Part shown: in pieces, positions 8,210 to 40,260 of the stretch
How the letters are laid out: every line of letters starts with the position of its first letter
How positions within the stretch are numbered: position 1 is the stretch's first letter
DNA from: Flavobacterium caseinilyticum
GTDB taxonomy: Bacteria; Bacteroidota; Bacteroidia; Flavobacteriales; Flavobacteriaceae
Length of the DNA stretch: 64,000 nucleotides
Direction: 5' to 3'
NCBI RefSeq assembly: GCF_004349085.1
Contig: NZ_SMFM01000001.1
Location: 682,001 to 746,000 of the forward strand
Made by a program: the position numbers and the translations under genes
The notes under the pieces: generated by a model
Seen by the model: the letters and a program-made list of their open reading frames with translations, nothing else
What the model was told of the DNA's origin: nothing
Databases searched by the model: none

Positions 8210-8368
8210 ATGGATTTGGCACAAGAATTAGCATTAGTAAGCAGTTCGGCGATATATGCCTATCTTATGCATCCTGAAATGCAAGGCAAGTTGAATGATG
8301 AATGTCCCAAATATGAAATGAGATTAACGGAGTCTGTTGCAGAAAATACTCTAAAAAGCAACAAATAA
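8210..8368 (+). pseudogene. Decayed copy of the CPMHPE metal domain
   Basis: The reading frame from the ATG at 8210 encodes 52 residues ending in -KSNK. It aligns with the C-terminus of the lipoprotein at 7378: YAYLMHPEMQGKLNDECPKY here against YACPMHPEVQGKLNDKCPKC there, and both end in KSNK. Three of the defining metal-ligand positions are changed (CP to YL, and CG to YE), and the signal peptide and lipobox are missing. The rest of the gap 8100-8209 holds a short open stretch on the plus strand with no recognisable product. Confidence 0.75.
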
Positions 8369-8445
8369 AATAAGAATTTATCTTATTTAATTCTAATCAA
8401 CCTTATTTTAGATATAACGGTAAGGTTGATTAAAAATACACTAAA

Positions 8446-10980
8446 ATGAAGCATACCTATACTATTACCGGAATGTCATGTGATGGTTGTCGCACCAAAG
8501 TGGAAAAAACATTAAACGGTCTCGATGGGATTCAAGCTGTTGTTACTTTAGTTCCGCCAATAGCGACTATAACAATGGATAAACACATTCCCACTAAGCA
8601 ATTACAAGAGACTTTAACTGCCGCGGGGAACTATACCATTGAAATGAATACTGCTGTCGATTCTCAAGGGAACATTGATAAAACAGTCGAAAAATCGTGC
8701 TGCAGTTCGAATAAACCACAAGAAAAAGCAACCGTGCTTTTACCCAAAAATGCAAAAGGTAAATACTATTGCCCGATGCATTGTGAAGGTGAAAAAGTGT
8801 ATGATAAACCTGGAGATTGCCCGGTTTGTGGAATGGATTTGGTTAAAGAAGCTGCGACGGTAAGCAGTAAAATAATGTATACCTGTCCCATGCATCCCGA
8901 AGTTATCAATGAAGGCCCTGGTTCATGTCCTATTTGCGGAATGGATTTAGTGCCTATGGAGCCTACCGATGCCGAAGAAAATAAGGTGTATGATGACTTG
9001 GTACGCAAAATGAAAATAGCGGTAATTTTTACGGTTCCTATTTTTATTATTGCCATGTCGGATATGATTCCAAATAATCCATTAATGAAAATTATGGATA
9101 CTACGAAATGGAATTGGGTGCAACTAATTTTGTCGCTTCCGGTCGTTTTTTATGCCTGTTGGATGTTTTTTGAGCGTGCATGGAAATCCATTGTTACTTG
9201 GAATCTCAATATGTTTACCCTTATCGGAATTGGTTCTGGAGTAGCTTTTCTGTTTAGTTTGGTTGGATTATTTTTTCCAACGATTTTCCCGGACGAATTT
9301 AAAACACATAATGGCGCCGTTCATCTTTATTTTGAAGCGACAACTGTGATATTAACGTTGGTTTTACTGGGGCAGTTATTAGAAGCCAGAGCACATAGTC
9401 AAACTAGTGGCGCGATAAAAGAGCTTTTGAAATTAGCACCAACCGAAGCCACTTTGATTATCGAAGGAGCTGATAAAGTGATTTCAATTCACGACATCAA
9501 AAAAGGAGATTTGTTGCGTGTAAAACCGGGAGATAAAATTCCGGTTGATGGTAAAATTACAGATGGAGAAAGTACAATTGACGAATCAATGATTTCAGGG
9601 GAACCTATCCCCGTTGATAAAAAAATAGAAGATGCCGTTATAGCAGGAACAATAAACGGAAATAAATCTTTTGTCATGGTTGCCGAGAAAGTAGGTTCGG
9701 AAACCTTGCTTTCGCAAATTGTACAAATGGTAAATGACGCCAGTCGTTCTAGAGCACCAATCCAAAAATTAGCGGATAGAATCGCTAAATATTTCGTGCC
9801 GATAGTGGTAATTGTTTCTGTAGTTACATTTTTTGTTTGGGCAAAATTCGGACCGGAACCCGCACTGGTTTATGGATTTATTAATGCGATTGCCGTATTG
9901 ATAATTGCCTGTCCGTGTGCTTTGGGATTGGCTACGCCAATGTCAGTAATGGTCGGTGTTGGAAAAGGAGCTCAATCGGGAGTTTTGATAAAAAATGCCG
10001 AAGCACTGGAAAACATGAATAAAGTAAATGTTCTGATAACGGATAAAACAGGAACAATTACCGAGGGAAAACCTTCAGTGGAGAAAATTTATTCGTCGAA
10101 TAATCAGGAAGATGTTTTATTACAAAGCATCGCTTCATTAAATCAGTACAGTGAACACCCTTTGGCGCAAGCCGTAGTCAATTTTGCGAAAGCAAAAGAA
10201 GTTACATTAATCGAAGTAAAGGATTTTGAAGCGATTTCCGGCAAAGGAGTCATTGGAACGGTAACCAATAAAAAAGTAGCGCTTGGGAATAAAAAATTGA
10301 TGGAGCAAGTGAATGCCACTGTTTCGGATGAATTAGAAAATCAAATTATAGCTGAACAAAAACAAGGAAAAACGGTTTCTTACATTTCATTGGACGAAAT
10401 TGCGGTGGGATTTGTATCAATTACAGATGCCATAAAAGCAACAAGCGTCGAAGCGATAAAAGAACTGATGCGTCAGGGAGTTGAGGTAATCATGCTTACC
10501 GGAGATAATGAAAATACCGCAAAAGCAGTGGCGACACAGTTGAATTTAAGTTCGTTTAAAGCAAGTTGTTTGCCTGAAGACAAGCTGAAAGAAATTAAAC
10601 GACTGCAAGCTGAAGGAAAAATTGTAGCTATGGCTGGCGACGGAATCAACGATGCTCCGGCTTTGGCGCAAGCCGATGTTGGAATTGCGATGGGAACCGG
10701 AACTGATGTGGCTATTGAAAGTGCTAAAATTACGTTAGTGAAAGGTGATTTACAAGGAATCGTAAAAGCGAAAAACTTAAGTCATGCGGTGATGCGAAAT
10801 ATCAAGCAAAATTTATTCTTTGCCTTTTTCTATAATGTATTGGGAATTCCAATTGCCGCGGGTGTTTTGTATCCGTTTTTTGGAGTTTTGCTTTCGCCAA
10901 TGATTGCGGCTTTGGCAATGAGTTTCAGTTCGGTTTCAGTTATTGCAAATGCGTTGCGATTGAGAAATTTAAAGCTTTAA
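8446..10980 (+). CDS. copA: Cu(I)-exporting P1B-type ATPase with HMA + two CPMH domains
   Basis: Residues 1-68 are an HMA domain (GMSCDGC, Cys12/Cys15). Two heavy-metal-binding modules follow, at about 107-132 (YYCPMHCE...CPVCGMDL) and 143-168 (YTCPMHPE...CPICGMDL). Then comes the P-type ATPase core: transmembrane Cu site CPC at 489-491, phosphorylation motif DKTGT at Asp533, SEHPLA (His-Pro of the nucleotide domain) and GDGINDAPAL. CPC plus the HP motif indicates Cu(I)/Ag(I) specificity, exporting to the periplasm with ATP. The 844-residue length reflects the extra N-terminal modules. It shares an upstream repeat-derived sequence with the HMA gene at 7779. Confidence 0.96.
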   Translation: MKHTYTITGMSCDGCRTKVEKTLNGLDGIQAVVTLVPPIATITMDKHIPTKQLQETLTAAGNYTIEMNTAVDSQGNIDKTVEKSCCSSNKPQEKATVLLPKNAKGKYYCPMHCEGEKVYDKPGDCPVCGMDLVKEAATVSSKIMYTCPMHPEVINEGPGSCPICGMDLVPMEPTDAEENKVYDDLVRKMKIAVIFTVPIFIIAMSDMIPNNPLMKIMDTTKWNWVQLILSLPVVFYACWMFFERAWKSIVTWNLNMFTLIGIGSGVAFLFSLVGLFFPTIFPDEFKTHNGAVHLYFEATTVILTLVLLGQLLEARAHSQTSGAIKELLKLAPTEATLIIEGADKVISIHDIKKGDLLRVKPGDKIPVDGKITDGESTIDESMISGEPIPVDKKIEDAVIAGTINGNKSFVMVAEKVGSETLLSQIVQMVNDASRSRAPIQKLADRIAKYFVPIVVIVSVVTFFVWAKFGPEPALVYGFINAIAVLIIACPCALGLATPMSVMVGVGKGAQSGVLIKNAEALENMNKVNVLITDKTGTITEGKPSVEKIYSSNNQEDVLLQSIASLNQYSEHPLAQAVVNFAKAKEVTLIEVKDFEAISGKGVIGTVTNKKVALGNKKLMEQVNATVSDELENQIIAEQKQGKTVSYISLDEIAVGFVSITDAIKATSVEAIKELMRQGVEVIMLTGDNENTAKAVATQLNLSSFKASCLPEDKLKEIKRLQAEGKIVAMAGDGINDAPALAQADVGIAMGTGTDVAIESAKITLVKGDLQGIVKAKNLSHAVMRNIKQNLFFAFFYNVLGIPIAAGVLYPFFGVLLSPMIAALAMSFSSVSVIANALRLRNLKL

Positions 10981-31046: not shown

Positions 31047-31184
31047 AATTATATTTTTTTAATATGTCGCAAAAAACATAGAAATGTTACAAACGATTGG
31101 TTAGAATTTCCAAGTTTAATTATCGGCATAGGATGCAAATATATTGCTAATTCTAAAATTCTTTTAGTTAATTTGCACCCAATT

Positions 31185-32321
31185 ATGAAATCACAACATC
31201 AGGTCATTTTATCGATAGGAAGCAATCAAGGCAATCGTTTGGAAAACATCGAGCGTTGTTTGAAATTGATACATCAAGAAATTGGGACTGTAATAAAAGT
31301 TTCGAAATTGTATGAGACTCCGGCTTGGGGTTTTGAAAGCGATGCTTTTTATAATTGTGCGTTGGTTTTACACACTTTTACGTCAGCTCATAAAATTTTG
31401 GCTCAGGTTTTAAAAATCGAAAAACGTTTGGGGCGCTTGCGAAATAAAACCCAAGAATACCAATCGCGTACCATTGATATTGATTTGATTGCATTCGACT
31501 CAGAAATTATTACTACGGAAAAACTTCAAATTCCACATCCTTTGATGCAAAATAGGAATTTTGTTTTGTTGCCCATTCAAGATTTGAATTTAGATTGGAA
31601 ACATCCGATTCTTCAAAAAAATATTTCGGAATTATTAGTTTTGTCACCGGATGAGAGTGTTTGTACAGAAGTTCAGAATTTGGTTAATCCTCTGCAAAGT
31701 ATCCCGTTGGAGCAATTTAATTATGTAGCTTTCGAGGGAAATATTGGAGCAGGAAAAACAACGTTGGCTACAAAAATTTCCGAGGATTTTAATGCGAAAA
31801 CAGTATTGGAACGTTTTGCTGATAATCCTTTTTTACCCAAATTTTATAAAGATCAGAACCGTTACGCGTTTCCGCTTGAAATGTCTTTTTTAGCGGATAG
31901 ATACCAACAATTATCCGATGATTTAGCGCAATTTGATTTGTTTAAAGACTTTCTAGTTGCAGATTATCATATTTTTAAGTCTTTGATTTTTGCAAAAATA
32001 ACACTTGCCGAAGATGAGTATCGTTTGTATCGTAATCTTTTTGATATCATTTACAGAGAAATGCCAAAACCGGATTTGTACATTTATTTGTACCAAAATT
32101 CAGAAAGGCTGCTGCAAAATATTAAGAAACGCGGCAGAAGCTACGAACAAAAAATCCCAGCTGAATATTTAGACAAAATCAATAGCGGTTATCTGGATTA
32201 TATTAAATCACAAACTGATTTGAATGTTCTTATTATTGATGTTTCGGATCGAGATTTTGTAAAAAATCAAGAAGATTATCTTTTTATTTTAGATGAAATT
32301 CAAAAGAAGATTCAGGTTTAG
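31185..32321 (+). CDS. folK: Fusion: FolK (HPPK) + deoxynucleoside kinase
   Basis: I use the ATG at 31185 (378 residues); a TTG four codons upstream is less likely. Residues 1-155 are 6-hydroxymethyl-7,8-dihydropterin pyrophosphokinase: SIGSNQGNR, YETPAWGF, RTIDIDLI and HPLMQNRNFVLLP are all present. After a linker, residues 175-378 are a deoxynucleoside kinase: P-loop EGNIGAGKTT, ERFADNPFLPKFY, an ERS/NRD-like region and KRGRSYE lid residues. The fusion joins folate synthesis to deoxynucleotide salvage; it is known in flavobacteria. The last 50 nt are duplicated at 34826-34880. Confidence 0.93.
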   Translation: MKSQHQVILSIGSNQGNRLENIERCLKLIHQEIGTVIKVSKLYETPAWGFESDAFYNCALVLHTFTSAHKILAQVLKIEKRLGRLRNKTQEYQSRTIDIDLIAFDSEIITTEKLQIPHPLMQNRNFVLLPIQDLNLDWKHPILQKNISELLVLSPDESVCTEVQNLVNPLQSIPLEQFNYVAFEGNIGAGKTTLATKISEDFNAKTVLERFADNPFLPKFYKDQNRYAFPLEMSFLADRYQQLSDDLAQFDLFKDFLVADYHIFKSLIFAKITLAEDEYRLYRNLFDIIYREMPKPDLYIYLYQNSERLLQNIKKRGRSYEQKIPAEYLDKINSGYLDYIKSQTDLNVLIIDVSDRDFVKNQEDYLFILDEIQKKIQV

Positions 32322-32339
32322 GATTTGAAGATTGGTGAA

Positions 32340-34520
32340 TTATCTTTTTAGGGAAAAATGACCTCTTTTTTCAGGGCTGTTTCTGTCAATTTTTAATACA
32401 TACCAATAATCGGAAGCGGGTAACAGCTTCTTATTAAAAGTTCCGTCCCACGATGGTTTAGCTGCGTTTAGTTTCGTAATGAATTTACCATAACGATCAA
32501 AGATGCCCACTTCAGCTTTAGGATAATTGACTAATCCTTTTATTTCCCATACGTCATTATAGGAATCATTGTTAGGGGTGAAAAATTTCGGAGCAATCAA
32601 TACTATAAAAGATTCACTGTCAATTCCGCATGAATTTATTTCTCTAGCATAGGCTGTTTGTAAGCCGCTTACCACATTGAAAAATACATTCGAGCTTTGA
32701 TAATTAATCCCGTCAACAGAATATTCAAAATAATCTTTTGGGTTTTTTAAATAAATTACAACAGTGGTTTCATTAACATCAATTCGGTCGATTTCTGGAG
32801 TGTCATGTTCAATTACAGTGATCTTTTTGGTGCTGCTACAGTTGGCGCTATTTGTTACCGTTACGTTATAAATGCCTGGAGCAGTAACCTGAATTGTCTT
32901 CGTGGTTTCGCCGGTTGACCATGAATACGTCATATCAGGGATTGCTGCATCAAGGATTAAACTACCGGATTCACAAAGTATTAATTCCTCGTCCGTAACT
33001 ACGAGAGTATCGTAAATTAGGATGTCAACAGCAATCCGATTCCCGTTTGTACATCCGTTATTTACCGCTTCGGCATAATAAGTGGTGTTTTGTGTTATAT
33101 TGGGTAAAGTCAGACTTGTTCCAGTTCCTATGATAGCGCTGCTAGTTAAGTTCGAATACCAATTTACAGTTCCAATAGTGGTAGTTGCTTGAATAGTTAC
33201 AGCTCCTGGTCCACATCTTGAAACGGGATTGTTCGTTGATGTTATGTTAGGAATAGCATGTATTGTTGCGGTAATAGCTGTTCTGTTATTTGAACATCCT
33301 GCTTCTACATAATAAGTTGTTGTTGTATTTAAAGAAGGGGTTCTATACGTATTGCCGGTGTATACTAAATTTCCAAACCTTGCCGCATCATACCAATTGA
33401 TCGTTCCGCCGGACGCTGTTGCTTGCAATGTCACAGTTCCTGGTCCGCAATTTGAAGCGGGAGCAGTAGCTGTAATTTTAGGAATTATCATCGTGGTACT
33501 GGTTGAAATTTCAAGAATTGGATCACCAAGCATGCCGCCGTATTCTACAACATACCCTTTGGGTTGGTAATTTCCGCTTGTGTCACCATTTACTTGTAAA
33601 TCATTCCAGGAACCGGATATTCCAATACCTGGCGCAGTTATGTGAGCATAATGTTCTATACCGTTACTGTTATTTGGTTCATTAGTATTCCAAAGCGCAA
33701 ATTGATTAGGTGATGCCGAGCCACTGATTCCGCCATTCCAAAAAACAGTTCCGGTACCACCATTTGCAAGGCCTTCGGGACCTGTTACCCATTTCCATAC
33801 TCCTTCTGTTTCGGCATCACTACCGCCAATCCATCCTGCTCCATTAGCCTGTTCTCCTGCTAATTGCGCTTCATCAGCTGCGGTGATTGTTGCTAAATAT
33901 CCTTTAAGTCCAAAATACTCCCTCGTTTCCGCAGCTGCTTTTGCGGCTGTCCAGCTAATGCCTATGTTGCGGAAATATTCATAATAGTGGCCATTTCTAG
34001 GTAAATAATTGGCTGCTCCAAGGGTAATAGAAAAAGTCCTGCTTCCAGACGGAGTCGTAGAGGAATTGGTAAAAACAACATCTTTGATCGCATTTACAAA
34101 GTCGGCATAAAGTACTTTTTCGGGTGAATTAGCACTGAATAATTTCAGTTTTCCTTCAAGAGGACTCCATTCAGTGACGATATTTGAGTGGAGTGTGGGA
34201 TTAGCTAATTCAACTTTATCCTGTCCGTTTACATATCCTGTGGAAATTTGGATATAAATAGCTTCGGTTCCGATATCGGTGGCATCTGAGCCAGTTATGG
34301 TAACATCGGTTACTATGTTTACTGAAGTTCCGGGACAGTAAATTTGATTGCCTGTCGCTGTAATTCTGGGGGCATCAGCCGTGATAGATGATTTTAATAC
34401 TTTTCTAGGAATAACAGCGCTGTCTTTTTTTAGGGTGTAAATGGGAATGGCTGAATAGTTAGCCATTGGTACAAATAATAAAAAAGCTATTGTTATTTTC
34501 AAGAAAGTATTAATTCTCAT
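32340..34520 (-). CDS. T9SS-secreted C-type-lectin / Ig-like protein (copy A)
   Basis: This 726-residue surface protein has a signal peptide (1-24) and a beta-rich N-terminal region with YCPGTSVNIVTDVTITG. Next is a C-type lectin-like domain (about 175-325; GAGWIGGSDAETEGVWKWVTGPEG, FALWNTNEPNN, YAHITA). Then come two Ig-like repeats beginning CGPG (about 350-500), a PKD-like segment, and a type IX secretion sorting domain type B at the end (FFTPNNDSYNDVWEIKGL ... SDYWYVLKI...GHFSLKR). It probably binds glycans at the cell surface. It is a paralogue of the gene at 34893 and part of a segmental duplication. Confidence 0.92.
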   Translation of the reverse strand: MRINTFLKITIAFLLFVPMANYSAIPIYTLKKDSAVIPRKVLKSSITADAPRITATGNQIYCPGTSVNIVTDVTITGSDATDIGTEAIYIQISTGYVNGQDKVELANPTLHSNIVTEWSPLEGKLKLFSANSPEKVLYADFVNAIKDVVFTNSSTTPSGSRTFSITLGAANYLPRNGHYYEYFRNIGISWTAAKAAAETREYFGLKGYLATITAADEAQLAGEQANGAGWIGGSDAETEGVWKWVTGPEGLANGGTGTVFWNGGISGSASPNQFALWNTNEPNNSNGIEHYAHITAPGIGISGSWNDLQVNGDTSGNYQPKGYVVEYGGMLGDPILEISTSTTMIIPKITATAPASNCGPGTVTLQATASGGTINWYDAARFGNLVYTGNTYRTPSLNTTTTYYVEAGCSNNRTAITATIHAIPNITSTNNPVSRCGPGAVTIQATTTIGTVNWYSNLTSSAIIGTGTSLTLPNITQNTTYYAEAVNNGCTNGNRIAVDILIYDTLVVTDEELILCESGSLILDAAIPDMTYSWSTGETTKTIQVTAPGIYNVTVTNSANCSSTKKITVIEHDTPEIDRIDVNETTVVIYLKNPKDYFEYSVDGINYQSSNVFFNVVSGLQTAYAREINSCGIDSESFIVLIAPKFFTPNNDSYNDVWEIKGLVNYPKAEVGIFDRYGKFITKLNAAKPSWDGTFNKKLLPASDYWYVLKIDRNSPEKRGHFSLKR

Positions 34521-34551
34521 ACGATACGGTATTGCAAAGTCTATTTTTTTT

Positions 34552-34828
34552 CTATTTTGGCCATTTCATCTTTTGAAATAAATCCCAAACCACAATTCCC
34601 GCACTTACCGAAATATTCAAAGAATGTTTGGTGCCTAATTGTGGAATTTCGATGGAGCCATCGCACAATGCAACTGCTTCTTGCGAAACACCATAGACTT
34701 CGTTTCCAAAAACCAAAGCATATTTTTCTCCCTTTTGAACCTCAAAATTTTGAAGAAAAATAGCGCTTTCCACTTGTTCTATAGCAAGTGTCATTACATT
34801 TTCTGCTTTTAATTTTTCGATAACTTCA
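34552..34828 (-). pseudogene. 3' fragment of a TrmH/SpoU RNA methyltransferase gene
   Basis: It encodes the last ~90 residues of a SpoU-type methyltransferase, nearly co-linear with the C-terminus of the intact gene at 36443: both contain IEIPQLGTKHSLNISVS and GIVVWDLFQKM, and the reading frame continues upstream as LLEVIEKLKAENVMTLAIEQVE. It has no N-terminal half and no start. Similarity to the full gene ends at about 34826, where folK-like sequence begins. The fragment keeps the SAM-binding knot, so it might still be translated from an internal start, but it cannot be a normal enzyme. Confidence 0.9.
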
Positions 34829-34880
34829 AGAAGATTATGTTTACATTTTAGATGAAATTCAGAAAAAGATTAGTAAATAA
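34826..34880 (+). pseudogene. 3' tail of a duplicated folK-dNK gene
   Basis: In frame it reads EDYVYILDEIQKKISK then TAA. The true end of the folK-dNK gene at 32270-32321 reads EDYLFILDEIQKKIQV then TAG. The nucleotide sequence around GATGAAATTCA and the preceding GAAGATTAT match with few changes. It sits immediately against the trmH fragment and marks the duplication junction. Confidence 0.88.
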
Positions 34881-34892
34881 AATTAGATTGAG

Positions 34893-36407
34893 TTATCTTT
34901 TAAGAGAAAAATGTCCTCTTCTTTCAGGACTTACCGCATCAATTTTTAACACATACCAATAATCGGTAGCTGGCATTAATTTTTTATTATAGGTGCCGTC
35001 CCACGATAACTTGCGGCCATCTAGTTTGATTATAAATTTTCCATATCTGTCAAAAATAGTTACCTCTGCTTCGGGAAAAATATCAATTAATCCTTCTATT
35101 TCCCAAAAATCATTATACGAGTCATTGTTTGGGGTGAAAAACGGTGGAATTTTTATGAAAAAAAAGATTTCGCTGTCAGTCCCGCAGGAATTAAAACCTC
35201 GTACATAAGCAGTTTGTAGGCCTCCGCGAACATTGAAAAAAATATTTGAACTTTGATAATTAATACCGTCTACAGAATATTCATAATAAGACTGTGGATT
35301 TTTAACATTAATAATGATATTATTAGTGTTTACCTCAACATTGATGATTTCGGGGAAAGAAATTATTGTCATAGAAGTACTTGTGGCAACATTAATTGGA
35401 GAATCTCCAGGCATTCCGCCATACTCTACAATATATCCCTGTGGATGATAATCAGGATTTATACCGCCTCCTGTATTTGGCAAATCATTCCATGAACCTA
35501 GAATAGCGAGAGGTCCTGGTTTTGTTATATGGGCATAATTTTCACTGCCATCAACATTGTTGGGTTCCCCAGCGTTCCAAAAAGCAAAGTTAGGGGTGGA
35601 GCCATTGCTACGGCCATCCCAGAAAAGAGTTCCTTTTTCTGGTCCGGTTACCCAATACCATTTTCCTTCATTTCCCTCATCACTTCCGCCAATCCATCCG
35701 GCACCCGATGTGAGTTTACCCGCTATAGCGGCTTCCTCTGCATCCGTTATAGTTACTAAGTATCCTTTTCTTCCATAATAAGTCTTTGTTTCAGCAGCTA
35801 TTTTTGCGTCGGTCCAATTTATTAGGTAATCAGAGATAAATTCGTAGTGATGGCCATTACTTGATAAATAGTTAGTCTCGTCTATGACGATTGAAAAAGT
35901 TCGATTACCTGATGGTGCGGCTGTAGAATTGCTAAATTCTACGTCTTTTATGGCACTTACCAAGTCAGTGTATAACGCTTTCGTTCCTGATGCAGAACTG
36001 GATAATTCTAGTTTTCCTGTATCTGCATTCCAATTTGAAGTGATTGCGGGATGAGTGCCCATCAGTCTCAATTGATCTTCTCCATTCACATAACCGGAAG
36101 AGATTTGAATATAAATTGAGCCGATGCCAGTATCGTCAGGATCGGTTATGGTAACATCGGTTACTATTTTCATTGAAGTTCCCGGACAGTAATATTGATT
36201 GCCGCTGGCAATAATAACAGGAGGAGCCTCATTAAGTGATAATCGAGGATTTTCTGTATCAAAATTAGTGCTGAAAGAAGCTATTTTTACTGTTGATTCA
36301 AAATCATTACTTTTTTGTATTGAATTCAAACAAACTGCGGAATAAGATGCCGTTTGAGCTAACAATAAAAACGGAAATATGATTTTCAAAAAATTATAAA
36401 TTTTCAT
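34893..36407 (-). CDS. T9SS-secreted C-type-lectin protein (copy B)
   Basis: This 504-residue product is a paralogue of the protein at 32340. It has a signal peptide, the same N-terminal beta region (YCPGTSMKIVTDVTITDP), a C-type-lectin-like domain (GAGWIGGSDEGNEGKWYWVTGPE, FAFWNAGEPNN, YAHIT) and a C-terminal T9SS type B domain (FFTPNNDSYNDFWEIEGL). It lacks the two Ig-like repeats and PKD-like part of copy A, joining the lectin region to the NPQSYYEYSVDGINYQ segment. It is followed by the intact trmH gene. Confidence 0.92.
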   Translation of the reverse strand: MKIYNFLKIIFPFLLLAQTASYSAVCLNSIQKSNDFESTVKIASFSTNFDTENPRLSLNEAPPVIIASGNQYYCPGTSMKIVTDVTITDPDDTGIGSIYIQISSGYVNGEDQLRLMGTHPAITSNWNADTGKLELSSSASGTKALYTDLVSAIKDVEFSNSTAAPSGNRTFSIVIDETNYLSSNGHHYEFISDYLINWTDAKIAAETKTYYGRKGYLVTITDAEEAAIAGKLTSGAGWIGGSDEGNEGKWYWVTGPEKGTLFWDGRSNGSTPNFAFWNAGEPNNVDGSENYAHITKPGPLAILGSWNDLPNTGGGINPDYHPQGYIVEYGGMPGDSPINVATSTSMTIISFPEIINVEVNTNNIIINVKNPQSYYEYSVDGINYQSSNIFFNVRGGLQTAYVRGFNSCGTDSEIFFFIKIPPFFTPNNDSYNDFWEIEGLIDIFPEAEVTIFDRYGKFIIKLDGRKLSWDGTYNKKLMPATDYWYVLKIDAVSPERRGHFSLKR

Positions 36408-36442
36408 GCTATAAAAGTATAACTATTCTCAGTTAAAAAAAA

Positions 36443-36979
36443 TTATTTTGACCAATTCATTTTTTGAAATAGATCCCAAACTACAATACCTGTGCTTACT
36501 GAAATGTTCAATGAATGTTTTGTGCCTAATTGTGGAATTTCGATACTATTATCACACATTCTAATTGCGTCCTGAGAAACTCCATGCACTTCATTTCCAA
36601 AAATTAAAGCATACTTTTTTCCCTTTTCAACTTCAAAGTCTTGAAGATAAATCGAACTTTCTACTTGTTCGATAGCTAATACAGTTGTATCTGCTTTTTT
36701 TAATTGTTCAATTACATCAATTACATTACTTCTATATTCCCAAGCTACGGTTTCAGTAGCACCAAGAGCTGTCTTATGAATTTCCTTGTTTGGCGGACTC
36801 GCAGTAATTCCACATAAATATATTTTTTCAATCAAAAATGCATCTGCAGTTCGGAATACGGAACCAATGTTATGTAAACTGCGAATGTCATCTAAAACTA
36901 AAATAAGAGGTGTTTTTTTGGATTCTTTAAAGTCCTCAATAGATTTTCTTTCTAGTTCGCTGTTTTCTAATTTTCTCAT
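36443..36979 (-). CDS. SpoU/TrmH-family RNA 2'-O-methyltransferase
   Basis: This 178-residue enzyme of the SPOUT class uses SAM for ribose methylation of RNA. Motifs: LVLDDIRSLHNIGSVFRTAD at about 26-45, the middle motif IFGNEVHGVS, and the trefoil-knot motif IEIPQLGTKHSLNISVSTG. It is small, lacking the N-terminal extension of rRNA-specific members; the target (tRNA or rRNA) is not clear. A truncated copy lies at 34552. Confidence 0.92.
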   Translation of the reverse strand: MRKLENSELERKSIEDFKESKKTPLILVLDDIRSLHNIGSVFRTADAFLIEKIYLCGITASPPNKEIHKTALGATETVAWEYRSNVIDVIEQLKKADTTVLAIEQVESSIYLQDFEVEKGKKYALIFGNEVHGVSQDAIRMCDNSIEIPQLGTKHSLNISVSTGIVVWDLFQKMNWSK

Positions 36980-36998
36980 ATTTTGTTAATTGTTCAAA

Positions 36999-37032
36999 AA
37001 AAAAGCTTCCAAAGTGAATGGAAGCTTTTTTT
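36999..37032 (-). terminator. Terminator of the DUF1573 gene
   Basis: AAAAAGCTTCCA and TGGAAGCTTTTT form a 12-bp stem with a short loop and a T-run on the minus strand, about 20 nt after the DUF1573 stop. Confidence 0.85.
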
Positions 37033-37049
37033 CTTATATCAGTTTAAAA

Positions 37050-37496
37050 CTAGCTTTTTGAAGCTTCAGCGGCTAAAACATTTCCTTTTATTGTCAATGT
37101 TTTATTTGGTGTAGCTGCATTAGTGGTTAAAGTCACTGTTTTTGTGAAAGCTTGCCCTGCTCTTGAAGTATCATATTTTACTCCAATAACCCCTTTTGCG
37201 CCTGGAGCAATTGGTTCTTTAGGATACGTTGGAACCGTGCATCCGCATGAACCTTGAGCACTAGTTATGATTAATGGTTTATTTCCATTATTAGTAAAAA
37301 CAAATTCACGTTTCCCATCAGAGTTATAGGCAACAGTCCCATAATCAATTGTTTCAGTTACAAAAATCATTCCAGCACCATTTACTTTTGCAGTACTTAG
37401 TTTAGCTGTAGTTTTTACTTTTTTTGTAGTTTCTTGTGCATTAGAAGTAGCAACTCCCAAAACAACTAGCATAGCTAGAGTAATTATTTTTTTCAT
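37050..37496 (-). CDS. DUF1573 periplasmic protein
   Basis: This 148-residue protein has a signal peptide (cleavage near SNAQ, residue 20) and an Ig-like beta-sandwich of the DUF1573 type: FVTETIDYGTVAYNSDGKREF, ...LIITSAQGSCGCTVPTYPKEPIAPGAKGVIGV. The Gly/Cys-rich SCGCTVP motif is the family hallmark. Function unknown; abundant in Bacteroidota envelopes. Probably monocistronic. Confidence 0.88.
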   Translation of the reverse strand: MKKIITLAMLVVLGVATSNAQETTKKVKTTAKLSTAKVNGAGMIFVTETIDYGTVAYNSDGKREFVFTNNGNKPLIITSAQGSCGCTVPTYPKEPIAPGAKGVIGVKYDTSRAGQAFTKTVTLTTNAATPNKTLTIKGNVLAAEASKS

Positions 37497-37653
37497 GTCT
37501 ATTTCTATTTATATGTGTTTACAAATTTATATAAAAAATAGAAACTAGTCTAGAAAATTTTCTTAAATAATGCTTAATTTTTTGAAGTATGTACTTATTT
37601 ATTTTAAAATCTATAAATTCGCTGATATTTTTCATTTTTTAATAATAAGACCA

Positions 37654-40260
37654 TTGGCATCTACAGATAAAATAGTTAAGGAGACACCGTTAATGAAACA
37701 ATACAATGAGATCAAAAGGAAGTATCCGGATGCCTGTTTGTTGTTTCGTGTTGGCGATTTTTATGAGACATTTGGAGAAGACGCTGTTCGTGCTTCTAAA
37801 ATATTAGGAATTGTGTTAACCAAGCGTGGAGCGGGTTCTGAGACAGAAACTGCCCTTGCCGGTTTTCCGCATCATTCCTTGAATACGTATTTGCCTAAAT
37901 TAGTCAAAGCAGGTCTTCGTGTGGCAATTTGTGACCAGCTTGAAGATCCAAAAATGACTAAAACCATCGTAAAGCGTGGTGTTACGGAACTAGTAACTCC
38001 GGGGGTTTCTATGAATGATGAGGTGTTGAATTCTAAAACTAATAATTTCTTGGCTTCCATTTATTTTGCCAATAAATCTATAGGAATTTCCTTTCTCGAT
38101 GTTTCTACAGGAGAATTTTTAACAGCACAAGGAAACGCCGAATATATTGATAAATTGTTGCAGAATTTTAATCCAAGTGAAGTTCTGATTCCCAAAAATA
38201 ATAAGAGTGATTTCCGAGAAATTTTCGGGGACGATTATCATAGTTTTTATCTGGAAGATTGGATTTACCAAGAAGATTACGCATTTGAAACCCTGACCAA
38301 GCATTTTCAGACAATTTCCCTGAAAGGTTTTGGAATCGAAGAATTGAAAGAAGGAATTATCGCTTCGGGAGCCATTTTATATTATTTATCCGAAACACAG
38401 CATAATAAAGTACAGCATATCACAGCGATTCAGCGCATTGCAGAAGATGCTTACGTATGGATGGACCGATTCACCATTCGCAACCTTGAATTATACCACA
38501 GTTATAATCCAAACGCGGTGACGCTGCTGGACGTGATTGATAAAACGCTTTCGCCAATGGGCGGTCGTTTGCTGAAACGTTGGTTGGCGTTACCATTAAA
38601 AGACAGCCATAAAATTCAAAGTCGGCACCAAGTGGTTTCTTATTTAAAAGAAAATCAAAGTGTTTTAAAAAATATTCAGAATCAAATCAAGCAAATTTCT
38701 GATTTGGAACGCTTGATTTCGAAAATTGCAGCCGGAAAAGTATCGCCTCGAGAAGTAGTTTATCTGAAAGAATCGTTGGATGCTATTATTCCAATAAAAA
38801 CCTTGGCGTTAGAAAGTCCTCAAGAAGCCGTAAAAGTAATTGGAGACAGTTTACACAGTTGCGAATTGCTGCGGGAGAAAATCAAAACCGTTTTAAATCA
38901 AGATGCGCCTGTGGCTATTGCCAAAGGAAATGCGATTGCTAAGGGAATCAATGCCGAATTAGATGAATTACGGGCAATATCAACTTCTGGAAAAGAATTT
39001 TTGGAAGGAATCGAAAAACGAGAATCACAACTAACGGGGATCTCCTCTTTGAAAATTTCCTTTAATAACGTTTTTGGATATTACATTGAAGTTAGGAACC
39101 TGCACAAGGATAAAGTTCCTACGGAATGGATTCGGAAGCAAACTTTGGTAAATGCGGAACGTTATATTACCGAAGAATTAAAAGAATACGAAACGAAAAT
39201 CCTGGGTGCTGAAGAGAAAATTCATAAAATAGAAGTAGAATTGTTCGAACAATTAGTCAGTTGGATTTCTACGTATATCAAGCCGGTTCAGATGAATGCT
39301 AATCTGGTGGCGCAACTGGATTGTTTATGTTCATTCACTCAATTGGCTATCGAAAATAAATACGTTTGTCCTGAACTTGACGAAACATTCGAACTGGAAA
39401 TCAAAAACGGAAGACATCCTGTTATCGAAAAACAATTGCCGGTTGGCATGCCTTATATTGCCAATGATGTTTTCTTAGATAGAGAAACGCAGCAATTAAT
39501 TATGATTACGGGTCCAAATATGTCCGGAAAGTCAGCTATTTTGCGTCAAACAGCTTTGATTGTGCTATTGTGTCAAATGGGAAGTTTTGTTCCGGCAGAC
39601 AGCGTGAGAATGGGAATTGTGGATAAAATATTCACCAGAGTAGGAGCAAGTGATAATATTTCGATGGGCGAATCTACTTTTATGGTCGAAATGAACGAAA
39701 CAGCATCTATATTAAATAATATTTCTGATAGAAGTTTAGTGCTTTTAGACGAAATTGGAAGAGGAACGAGCACATATGACGGAATCTCCATCGCATGGGC
39801 CATTGCAGAATTCTTGCACGAACATCCCTCAAAACCGAAGACATTGTTCGCTACGCATTATCATGAGCTCAATGAAATGAGTCAATCGTTGCCTAGAATT
39901 CAGAATTACAATGTGGCTGTCAAAGAATTGAAAGATACTGTGCTTTTTATTCGAAAATTGGTCAAAGGAGGAAGTGCGCATAGTTTTGGAATACACGTAG
40001 CGAAAATGGCCGGAATGCCTCAGATTGTAATTTTGAAAGCACAGAAACTTTTAAAGAAGTTAGAAAAAAATCATTCTAGCGATGCGCTGAACGGAATTAA
40101 AGCTGCAAAGGATGAATTGCAAATGAGCTTCTTTAATCTGGATGATCCATTATTGGAAGAAATCAAGGAAGAGATTTTGAATCTGGATATAAATACCATT
40201 ACGCCTATGGAAGCACTGATGAAATTGAATGAAATTAAAAGAATGTTGACCAGAAAATAA
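37654..40260 (+). CDS. mutS: DNA mismatch repair protein MutS
   Basis: ATP-dependent recognition of mismatches. The core begins KIVKETPLMKQYNEIKRKYPDACLLFRVGDFYETFGEDA with the mismatch-contacting Phe-x-Glu (FYETFG). Walker A GPNMSGKSAI is present at about residue 615 of a 868-residue protein, with DEIGRGTSTYDG (Walker B/signature) and ATHYHEL. I start at TTG 37654 (MASTDK-like start typical of flavobacteria). An in-frame ATG at 37570 would add 28 hydrophobic residues unlike MutS. The exact start is uncertain. Confidence 0.96.
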   Translation: MASTDKIVKETPLMKQYNEIKRKYPDACLLFRVGDFYETFGEDAVRASKILGIVLTKRGAGSETETALAGFPHHSLNTYLPKLVKAGLRVAICDQLEDPKMTKTIVKRGVTELVTPGVSMNDEVLNSKTNNFLASIYFANKSIGISFLDVSTGEFLTAQGNAEYIDKLLQNFNPSEVLIPKNNKSDFREIFGDDYHSFYLEDWIYQEDYAFETLTKHFQTISLKGFGIEELKEGIIASGAILYYLSETQHNKVQHITAIQRIAEDAYVWMDRFTIRNLELYHSYNPNAVTLLDVIDKTLSPMGGRLLKRWLALPLKDSHKIQSRHQVVSYLKENQSVLKNIQNQIKQISDLERLISKIAAGKVSPREVVYLKESLDAIIPIKTLALESPQEAVKVIGDSLHSCELLREKIKTVLNQDAPVAIAKGNAIAKGINAELDELRAISTSGKEFLEGIEKRESQLTGISSLKISFNNVFGYYIEVRNLHKDKVPTEWIRKQTLVNAERYITEELKEYETKILGAEEKIHKIEVELFEQLVSWISTYIKPVQMNANLVAQLDCLCSFTQLAIENKYVCPELDETFELEIKNGRHPVIEKQLPVGMPYIANDVFLDRETQQLIMITGPNMSGKSAILRQTALIVLLCQMGSFVPADSVRMGIVDKIFTRVGASDNISMGESTFMVEMNETASILNNISDRSLVLLDEIGRGTSTYDGISIAWAIAEFLHEHPSKPKTLFATHYHELNEMSQSLPRIQNYNVAVKELKDTVLFIRKLVKGGSAHSFGIHVAKMAGMPQIVILKAQKLLKKLEKNHSSDALNGIKAAKDELQMSFFNLDDPLLEEIKEEILNLDINTITPMEALMKLNEIKRMLTRK

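Follow-up and report, generated by a model that had tools for sequence, protein, structure and literature searches.

A duplicated-looking lectin locus in Flavobacterium caseinilyticum as the probable trace of an imported chromosome piece

The stretch studied here, hereafter the window, comprises 64,000 nucleotides (nt) of Flavobacterium caseinilyticum (positions 682001 to 746000 of contig C1, NZ_SMFM01000001.1, in the 3.84 Mb genome G000). Between positions 31173 and 40260 of the window, the gene order is folK-dNK (+), lectin A (-), a 3' fragment of trmH (-), a 3' tail of dNK (+), lectin B (-), an intact trmH (-), a DUF1573 gene (-), and mutS (+). Herein, trmH is a label for a protein that matches SpoU_methylase (PF00588) but scores below the cut-off of the TrmH equivalog NF008295 (79.8 bits vs 227), and only one full-length copy of it is present in the genome. 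The two halves of the locus are connected by seven direct-repeat families (54 to 295 nt, 70-87% identity), including 34553-34847/36444-36738 (295 nt, 77%), 32613-32798/35169-35354 (70%), 33774-33953/35637-35816 (71%), and 32255-32312/34814-34871 (83%). An earlier note, made from the sequence alone, had named all of these parts from folK-dNK to the intact trmH and expected a parallel diagonal in a dot plot; each part was found at its position, and the diagonal was present, far beyond chance. The note had explained the arrangement by a single tandem duplication after which the lectin copies diverged. Our results point instead to copies that were already different when they met.

The relatives' loci used for comparison were the best 80 of 115 from a scan of species genomes with lectin B, together with 14 picked for a similar trmH (G and L numbers denote genomes and loci, respectively). 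In 65 of the 94 loci (51 of the 80 and all 14, on 64 distinct contigs), trmH and dNK lay within 9 kb of each other and flanked an interval of 172-7171 nt. An open reading frame (ORF) of more than 200 amino acids (aa) was present inside 63 of the 65 intervals: 59 had one such ORF, four had two (apparently a split gene in L049), and two had none. No trmH match longer than 30 nt was detected by blastn inside any of the 65 intervals, and the matches of 26-30 nt in five of them (L037, L039, L065, L067, and L076) were treated as chance. Matches to the dNK end of 20-28 nt occurred in eight loci (L039, L042, L049, L053, L060, L071, L073, and L102); the exact 20-nt dNK match seen in every locus was the overlap of query and subject and carries no meaning. 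The unduplicated order with trmH and dNK as flanks and no scraps between them, which the note had suggested looking for, was thus found in relatives. At the level of whole genomes, a trmH DNA match was obtained in 389 of 398 Flavobacterium genomes, and two matches were listed only for G000 and G124, the second match of G124 lying at a contig end in an assembly that is 86% complete. When the junction sequence between the trmH fragment and the dNK tail was searched directly in 60 genomes, it was covered only by G000.

The closest relatives found, judged by their dNK and mutS proteins, were G236, G214, G241, Flavobacterium sp. 11 (L036, the same contig as G331 and L198), G177, and G299. Against G236, G241, and L036, the trmH fragment had a synonymous divergence (dS) of 0.53-0.57 and a nonsynonymous divergence (dN) of 0.025-0.034, with a dN/dS of ~0.04-0.06, and dS was 0.45-0.74 for folK, dNK, and mutS. 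The frame of the fragment was open and showed no decay. For the intact trmH, the corresponding values were a dS of 1.30-1.49 in the 5' part and a dN of 0.139-0.162 in the 3' part, and the dS of its 5' part against the seven nearest relatives was 1.1-1.5. The fragment was 89.7% identical in nt to the trmH of L036 but 77.3% to the intact copy next to it, from which it differed with a dS of 0.93 (NG86, the Nei-Gojobori method).

Private bases, counted against eight relatives, gave a clearer picture. There were 7 in 495 positions of folK, 8/651 in dNK, 57/1993 in lectin A, 6/282 in the trmH fragment, and 47/2604 in mutS. In the 3' part of the intact trmH, which matches the fragment, 29 of 282 bases were private vs the 6 of the fragment (Fisher, 7e-5), and one of these six (34833) is a base of the join. 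When each of the eight relatives served as the focal genome in a control, 0.4-4.3% of the same trmH 3' part was private. On this evidence, the fragment and lectin A continue the resident chromosome, unlike the 3' part of the intact trmH.

Phylogenetic trees placed the copies apart. The 42-row DNA tree of the trmH 3' part and the 34-row protein tree of the lectin domain were fully searched, with rows chosen by similarity to both copies after larger trees had been seen. In the former, the fragment fell in a clade of seven (approximate likelihood-ratio support, SH-aLRT, 97.3; bootstrap 94) and the intact gene outside it; constraining the two together cost 12.9 log-likelihood (lnL) units, with a p value of 0.011 in the approximately unbiased test (p-AU). 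In the latter, lectin A grouped with G214, G028, G236, and G109 (95.9/99) and lectin B lay elsewhere; the supports of the resident group containing lectin A were 95.9/99, 96.7/98, and 98.7/100, and forcing lectins A and B to be sisters cost 54.7 lnL units (p-AU 1e-4). The fully searched trees, the private bases, and the greater likeness of the fragment to L036 than to the intact copy together argue for a separate ancestry of the copies.

The left junction was read from relatives. On the window strand, trmH codons 86-88 read TCAAGAAC in G236, G109, and G177, and CAAGAAC in L036 and G241; the dNK ends of G236, L036, and G177 read TCAAGAAGATTAT, and the join in the window reads CGATAACTTCAAGAAGATTATGTTTAC. 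Thus, TCAAGAA is present at the trmH site in G236, G109, and G177 (CAAGAA in L036 and G241) as well as in the dNK ends of close relatives, which indicates a shared block of TCAAGAA at 34826-34832. The note had rightly called the join microhomologous, but its TCAA was too short, because it came from a comparison of the dNK end with the wrong trmH copy, the intact one. Bases 34833-34836 of the trmH fragment may already belong to the dNK tail.

Beyond the shared block, the dNK tail reads EDYVYILDEIQKKISK followed by a stop, and the genome's own dNK ends in EDYLFILDEIQKKIQV and a stop. An in-genome duplication would have drawn its tail from the genome's own dNK, but the two differ at 12 of 48 nt, the first being 34839, the seventh base past the shared block. 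The counts of 12/48 in the tail and 6/282 in the fragment differ (Fisher, 2.3e-7), with measures that are not strictly alike. In ungapped comparison, the tail scored 31/42 with the own dNK and 35/42 with the best relative, and among 112 loci with a dNK end, the ending KKISK occurred only in L204 (G293) and DYVY only in L049. Since the fragment, made useless in the same event, has only ~2% private sites, the tail was most likely different before it arrived. We take another, unsampled lineage to be the source of lectin B, of the dNK tail, and of the intact trmH in its 3' part at least. A different kind of dNK repeat, a small local duplication, was seen in L106 (Flavobacterium potami), where 59 nt of the dNK 3' end recur at 97% identity within ~130 nt of the first copy.

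On the right-hand side, the gene order stays in register and collinear through the transition to the resident mutS. Compared with G236 in 60-nt blocks, the window is 63-88% identical as far as ~37640, after which four blocks reach 92-97%. The rate of private bases falls at ~36723 (about trmH codon 86) and again past ~37520. The features of the locus and their assignments are collected in Table 1.

Table 1. Features of the folK-dNK to mutS locus in window coordinates, with the origin that the comparisons suggest (private, private bases; paired values are SH-aLRT/bootstrap)
Feature	Position	Strand	Evidence
folK-dNK, resident, left flank	31173..32321	+	HPPK and dNK Pfam matches; dNK 97-99% aa to G236, G214, G241, L036, G177, G299; 8/651 nt private
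Lectin A, resident, secreted C-type-lectin-like, 726 aa, two Ig_7 stretches, type IX secretion system (T9SS) type B sorting domain	32340..34520	-	5-row clade with G214, G028, G236, G109 (95.9/99); 86% nt to G214 over 2034 nt
3' remnant of the resident trmH, ~codons 86-178 and stop	34552..34836	-	94.7% aa/89.7% nt to Flavobacterium sp. 11 trmH, dS 0.57; clade of seven 97.3/94; 6/282 nt private
Illegitimate junction, TCAAGAA common to resident trmH and incoming dNK end	34826..34832		Relatives' trmH and dNK sequences at the site
Putative incoming dNK 3' tail, reading EDYVYILDEIQKKISK and stop	34833..34880	+	12/48 nt unlike own dNK end (34839 being the first); ending KKISK shared with L204 (G293)
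Lectin B, putatively incoming, secreted C-type-lectin-like, 504 aa, no Ig_7, T9SS type B sorting domain	34893..36407	-	Sisterhood with lectin A rejected (p-AU 1e-4, 34 rows); not rejected in 116-row test
Intact SpoU/TrmH-family methyltransferase, sole full-length copy	36443..36979	-	3' part (to ~36730) putatively incoming; best nt match 82% in 398 Flavobacterium genomes
Interval expected to hold the homologous right-hand crossover	36730..37640		Identity to G236; private-base rate
DUF1573 gene, right flank, compatible with resident	37050..37496	-	84-89% aa to nine resident-group relatives vs 71-76% for five others; 20/441 private, equal to G236's 20/441
mutS, resident, right flank	37570..40260	+	95-98% aa to G236, G214, G241, L036, G177, G299; 47/2604 private

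We consider it probable that the locus arose by one import of a foreign chromosome piece through homology-facilitated illegitimate recombination (HFIR). The incoming piece would be part of the chromosome of another Flavobacterium-like lineage, reaching from inside dNK through the lectin gene into trmH. At its right end, it would have been joined homologously and in register on the trmH/DUF1573/mutS side, as the collinearity suggests, and at its left end, the incoming dNK end would have been joined to the middle of the resident trmH via TCAAGAA. The last ~93 codons of the resident trmH would have stayed as the fragment, and the net gain would be a second lectin gene, which may be of use to the cell. 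The data show that the copies differ in ancestry, which of them is resident, and where the left join lies; a single step, HFIR, the way in which the DNA entered, and a use for lectin B are inferences. HFIR typically involves microhomologies of a few bases. Two of its features are seen here: a microhomologous illegitimate junction at one end (TCAAGAA, trmH/dNK) and inserted foreign DNA (lectin B and the non-resident 3' part of the intact trmH). If the right crossover lay upstream of trmH, the first ~85 codons of the resident gene would have been lost; if it lay inside trmH, they would now make up the 5' portion of the intact gene, and an almost pure insertion would have resulted. As for the route by which the DNA may have entered, matches to Competence (PF03772) and DNA_processg_A (PF02481) are present in the genome, as they are in 10 and 11 of 14 control genomes, respectively. 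In Flavobacterium johnsoniae, natural competence was reportedly not found under the conditions tried (PMC7965970).

Several results weigh against such an import. In the 42-row trmH test, the Shimodaira-Hasegawa p value (p-SH) was 0.078. The 127-row trmH test did not reject sisterhood of the copies (50.3 lnL units, p-AU 0.123), with a bootstrap that had not settled, and neither did the 116-row lectin test (p-AU 0.676), a short search in which the constrained tree outscored the free one. The branch of lectin B is long (0.58 in the 34-row tree). The dS of the intact trmH against the relatives, 1.1-1.5 and 0.8-1.0, lies inside the span of the relatives' own trmH (0.29-2.18 in the 5' part and 0.22-1.19 in the 3' part, seven relatives), so that such distances do not by themselves decide the matter. 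Both DUF1573 (20/441 private) and the 5' part of the intact gene (11/246) fall within the relatives' private-base ranges (0-8.0% and 0-5.7%, respectively) and may be of resident origin, and the right crossover is placed only as a site that should lie somewhere within 36730-37640. Moreover, a donor was not found among the 398 Flavobacterium genomes and the best 80 of 115 loci: lectin B reached ~62-63% aa and the intact trmH 82% nt in their best matches.

Two steps could have led to the same arrangement: a tandem duplication at TCAAGAA, after which foreign DNA replaced the right copy (dNK tail, lectin, and trmH 3' part) by homologous recombination. The junction would be identical under both models, and allele exchange at the locus looks common, as in the trmH 3' end and the leucine-rich lectin N-terminus of G214 described below. 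However, the tail is non-resident from 34839, so the replacement would need to have stopped within a few bases of the junction, where the homology to a donor stops. Two events within a short time would also be needed, since the fragment has hardly changed (6/282). We therefore regard two steps as unlikely.

Still less probable is the import of a block that had already been rearranged in a relative and comprised the fragment, the tail, lectin B, and the intact trmH. The direct junction search covered 60 genomes, of which only the window's own had the junction, which leaves some room for such a block, but lectin A (86% nt to G214) and the fragment (90% to G236) are continuous with the resident flanks, folK-dNK being 90-91% identical to both.

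The single in-genome tandem duplication with later divergence, as proposed in the note, accounts for the order of the pieces and the microhomology at the join, and the 127- and 116-row tests leave it unrejected. It is nevertheless very improbable, because the 23% divergence between the copies is incompatible with the six private changes and the dN/dS of a fragment that should have decayed and did not. The fragment and lectin A also cluster with the resident lineage, the intact trmH and lectin B do not, and sisterhood was rejected in the fully searched trees. An ancestral duplication, kept here and collapsed elsewhere by recombination between the trmH pieces, would suit the age of the copies (dS 0.93) and could leave relatives with a single trmH, but it would require many independent collapses and a fragment free of decay throughout, and no trmH match above 30 nt was left in the 65 intervals, so we give it hardly any weight.

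The mechanism that we favor, import by HFIR, is already known. It has been described in Streptococcus pneumoniae, Acinetobacter baylyi, and Pseudomonas stutzeri, with one end homologous and the other illegitimate, as reported in a paper on Escherichia coli conjugation (PMC3240628). The likeness to the window lies in the homologous join at one end of the incoming DNA and the illegitimate join at the other. Those events took place in the laboratory, with linear DNA that had homology at a single end, whereas here a natural case in Flavobacterium would involve a piece that was homologous throughout and misjoined at one end. HFIR as described includes loss of recipient DNA; here such a loss may or may not have occurred, given a single full-length trmH whose 5' part could be the resident's own.

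A related situation is known from the type VI secretion system (T6SS) arrays of Vibrio cholerae, where displacement of effector-immunity modules leaves orphan immunity genes and an HFIR-like mechanism has been proposed (PMC5361080). There, a conserved neighbor anchors the imported module and an old resident piece is kept alongside, as in the window; here the cargo is a lectin, and a whole old lectin gene and a dead fragment of a housekeeping gene were kept. Merodiploids formed during pneumococcal transformation likewise hold two copies of a chromosomal segment, but those are tandem duplications of ~100-900 kb at long repeats (PMC3784515), whereas the segment here is ~2-2.8 kb, apparently foreign, and joined over ~7 bp. 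By their titles, none of the papers found on Flavobacterium and illegitimate recombination concerns such an event in the genus. The locus is a well-preserved natural example of the mechanism, in Flavobacterium. A tandem-looking gene pair with flanking scraps can thus be the trace of an import, and the scrap reveals which copy is the resident one, which offers a test for any tandem repeat that has cut into its neighbors.

Both lectins are T9SS type B secreted, C-type-lectin-like proteins, with TIGR04131 scores of 110.9 and 104.4 bits (curated cut-off 35), and lectin B differs as a short form. The motif pair EPN...WND, a mark of calcium-dependent, mannose-type sugar binding, was present in both and in all 114 distinct domains of relatives. 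In Pfam, Lectin_C matched lectin B with 21.2 bits, under the cut-off of 22.6, and had no listed match in lectin A; lectin B matched langerin domains in the PDB (phmmer, E 5e-7). As the note had observed, lectin A has two Ig-like repeats (Ig_7 stretches in Pfam) and lectin B has none. Whether this part was gained or lost had been left as a question. Apart from the split gene of L049, the ORFs longer than 200 aa in the 65 intervals have at least 686 aa, compared with the 504 aa of lectin B, so the Ig-like part is probably ancestral and was lost in the lineage of lectin B rather than gained in that of lectin A.

The variation at the locus suggests a wider reading, which we offer tentatively. The dNK-trmH interval of Flavobacterium might be an exchange site for secreted lectins, whose conserved flanks admit foreign alleles. 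Possibly, the old lectin is usually replaced and sometimes added to by one-sided illegitimate joining, in which case arrays would stem from import and not from duplication.

Judged from the relatives' sequences, trmH itself appears to have been exchanged in other lineages as well. The trmH 3' end of G214 (L205) is 83% identical in nt to the resident fragment vs ~90% in the flanks, and at 8223-9358 of the same locus, a leucine-rich-repeat N-terminus precedes the lectin domain in place of the usual N-terminus; the lectin and the distant trmH 3' end are probably another exchange at this locus. In G028 (L202), folK is near the window (dS 0.33) and mutS is far from it (dS 1.91; 234/2604 private), which suggests an exchange of mutS or the region around it in this genome as well.

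The content of the interval also varies among relatives. Two large lectin-matching ORFs are adjacent in L062, L104, and L209, where no trmH or dNK scraps were found in the intervals. In L049 (Flavobacterium difficile), the lectin frame is split, giving two ORFs (410 and 231 aa), and the gene may be broken. In L200 (G299) and L208 (G004), where no ORF of more than 200 aa is present, 172 and 625 nt remain, respectively, indicating that the lectin is dispensable cargo there.

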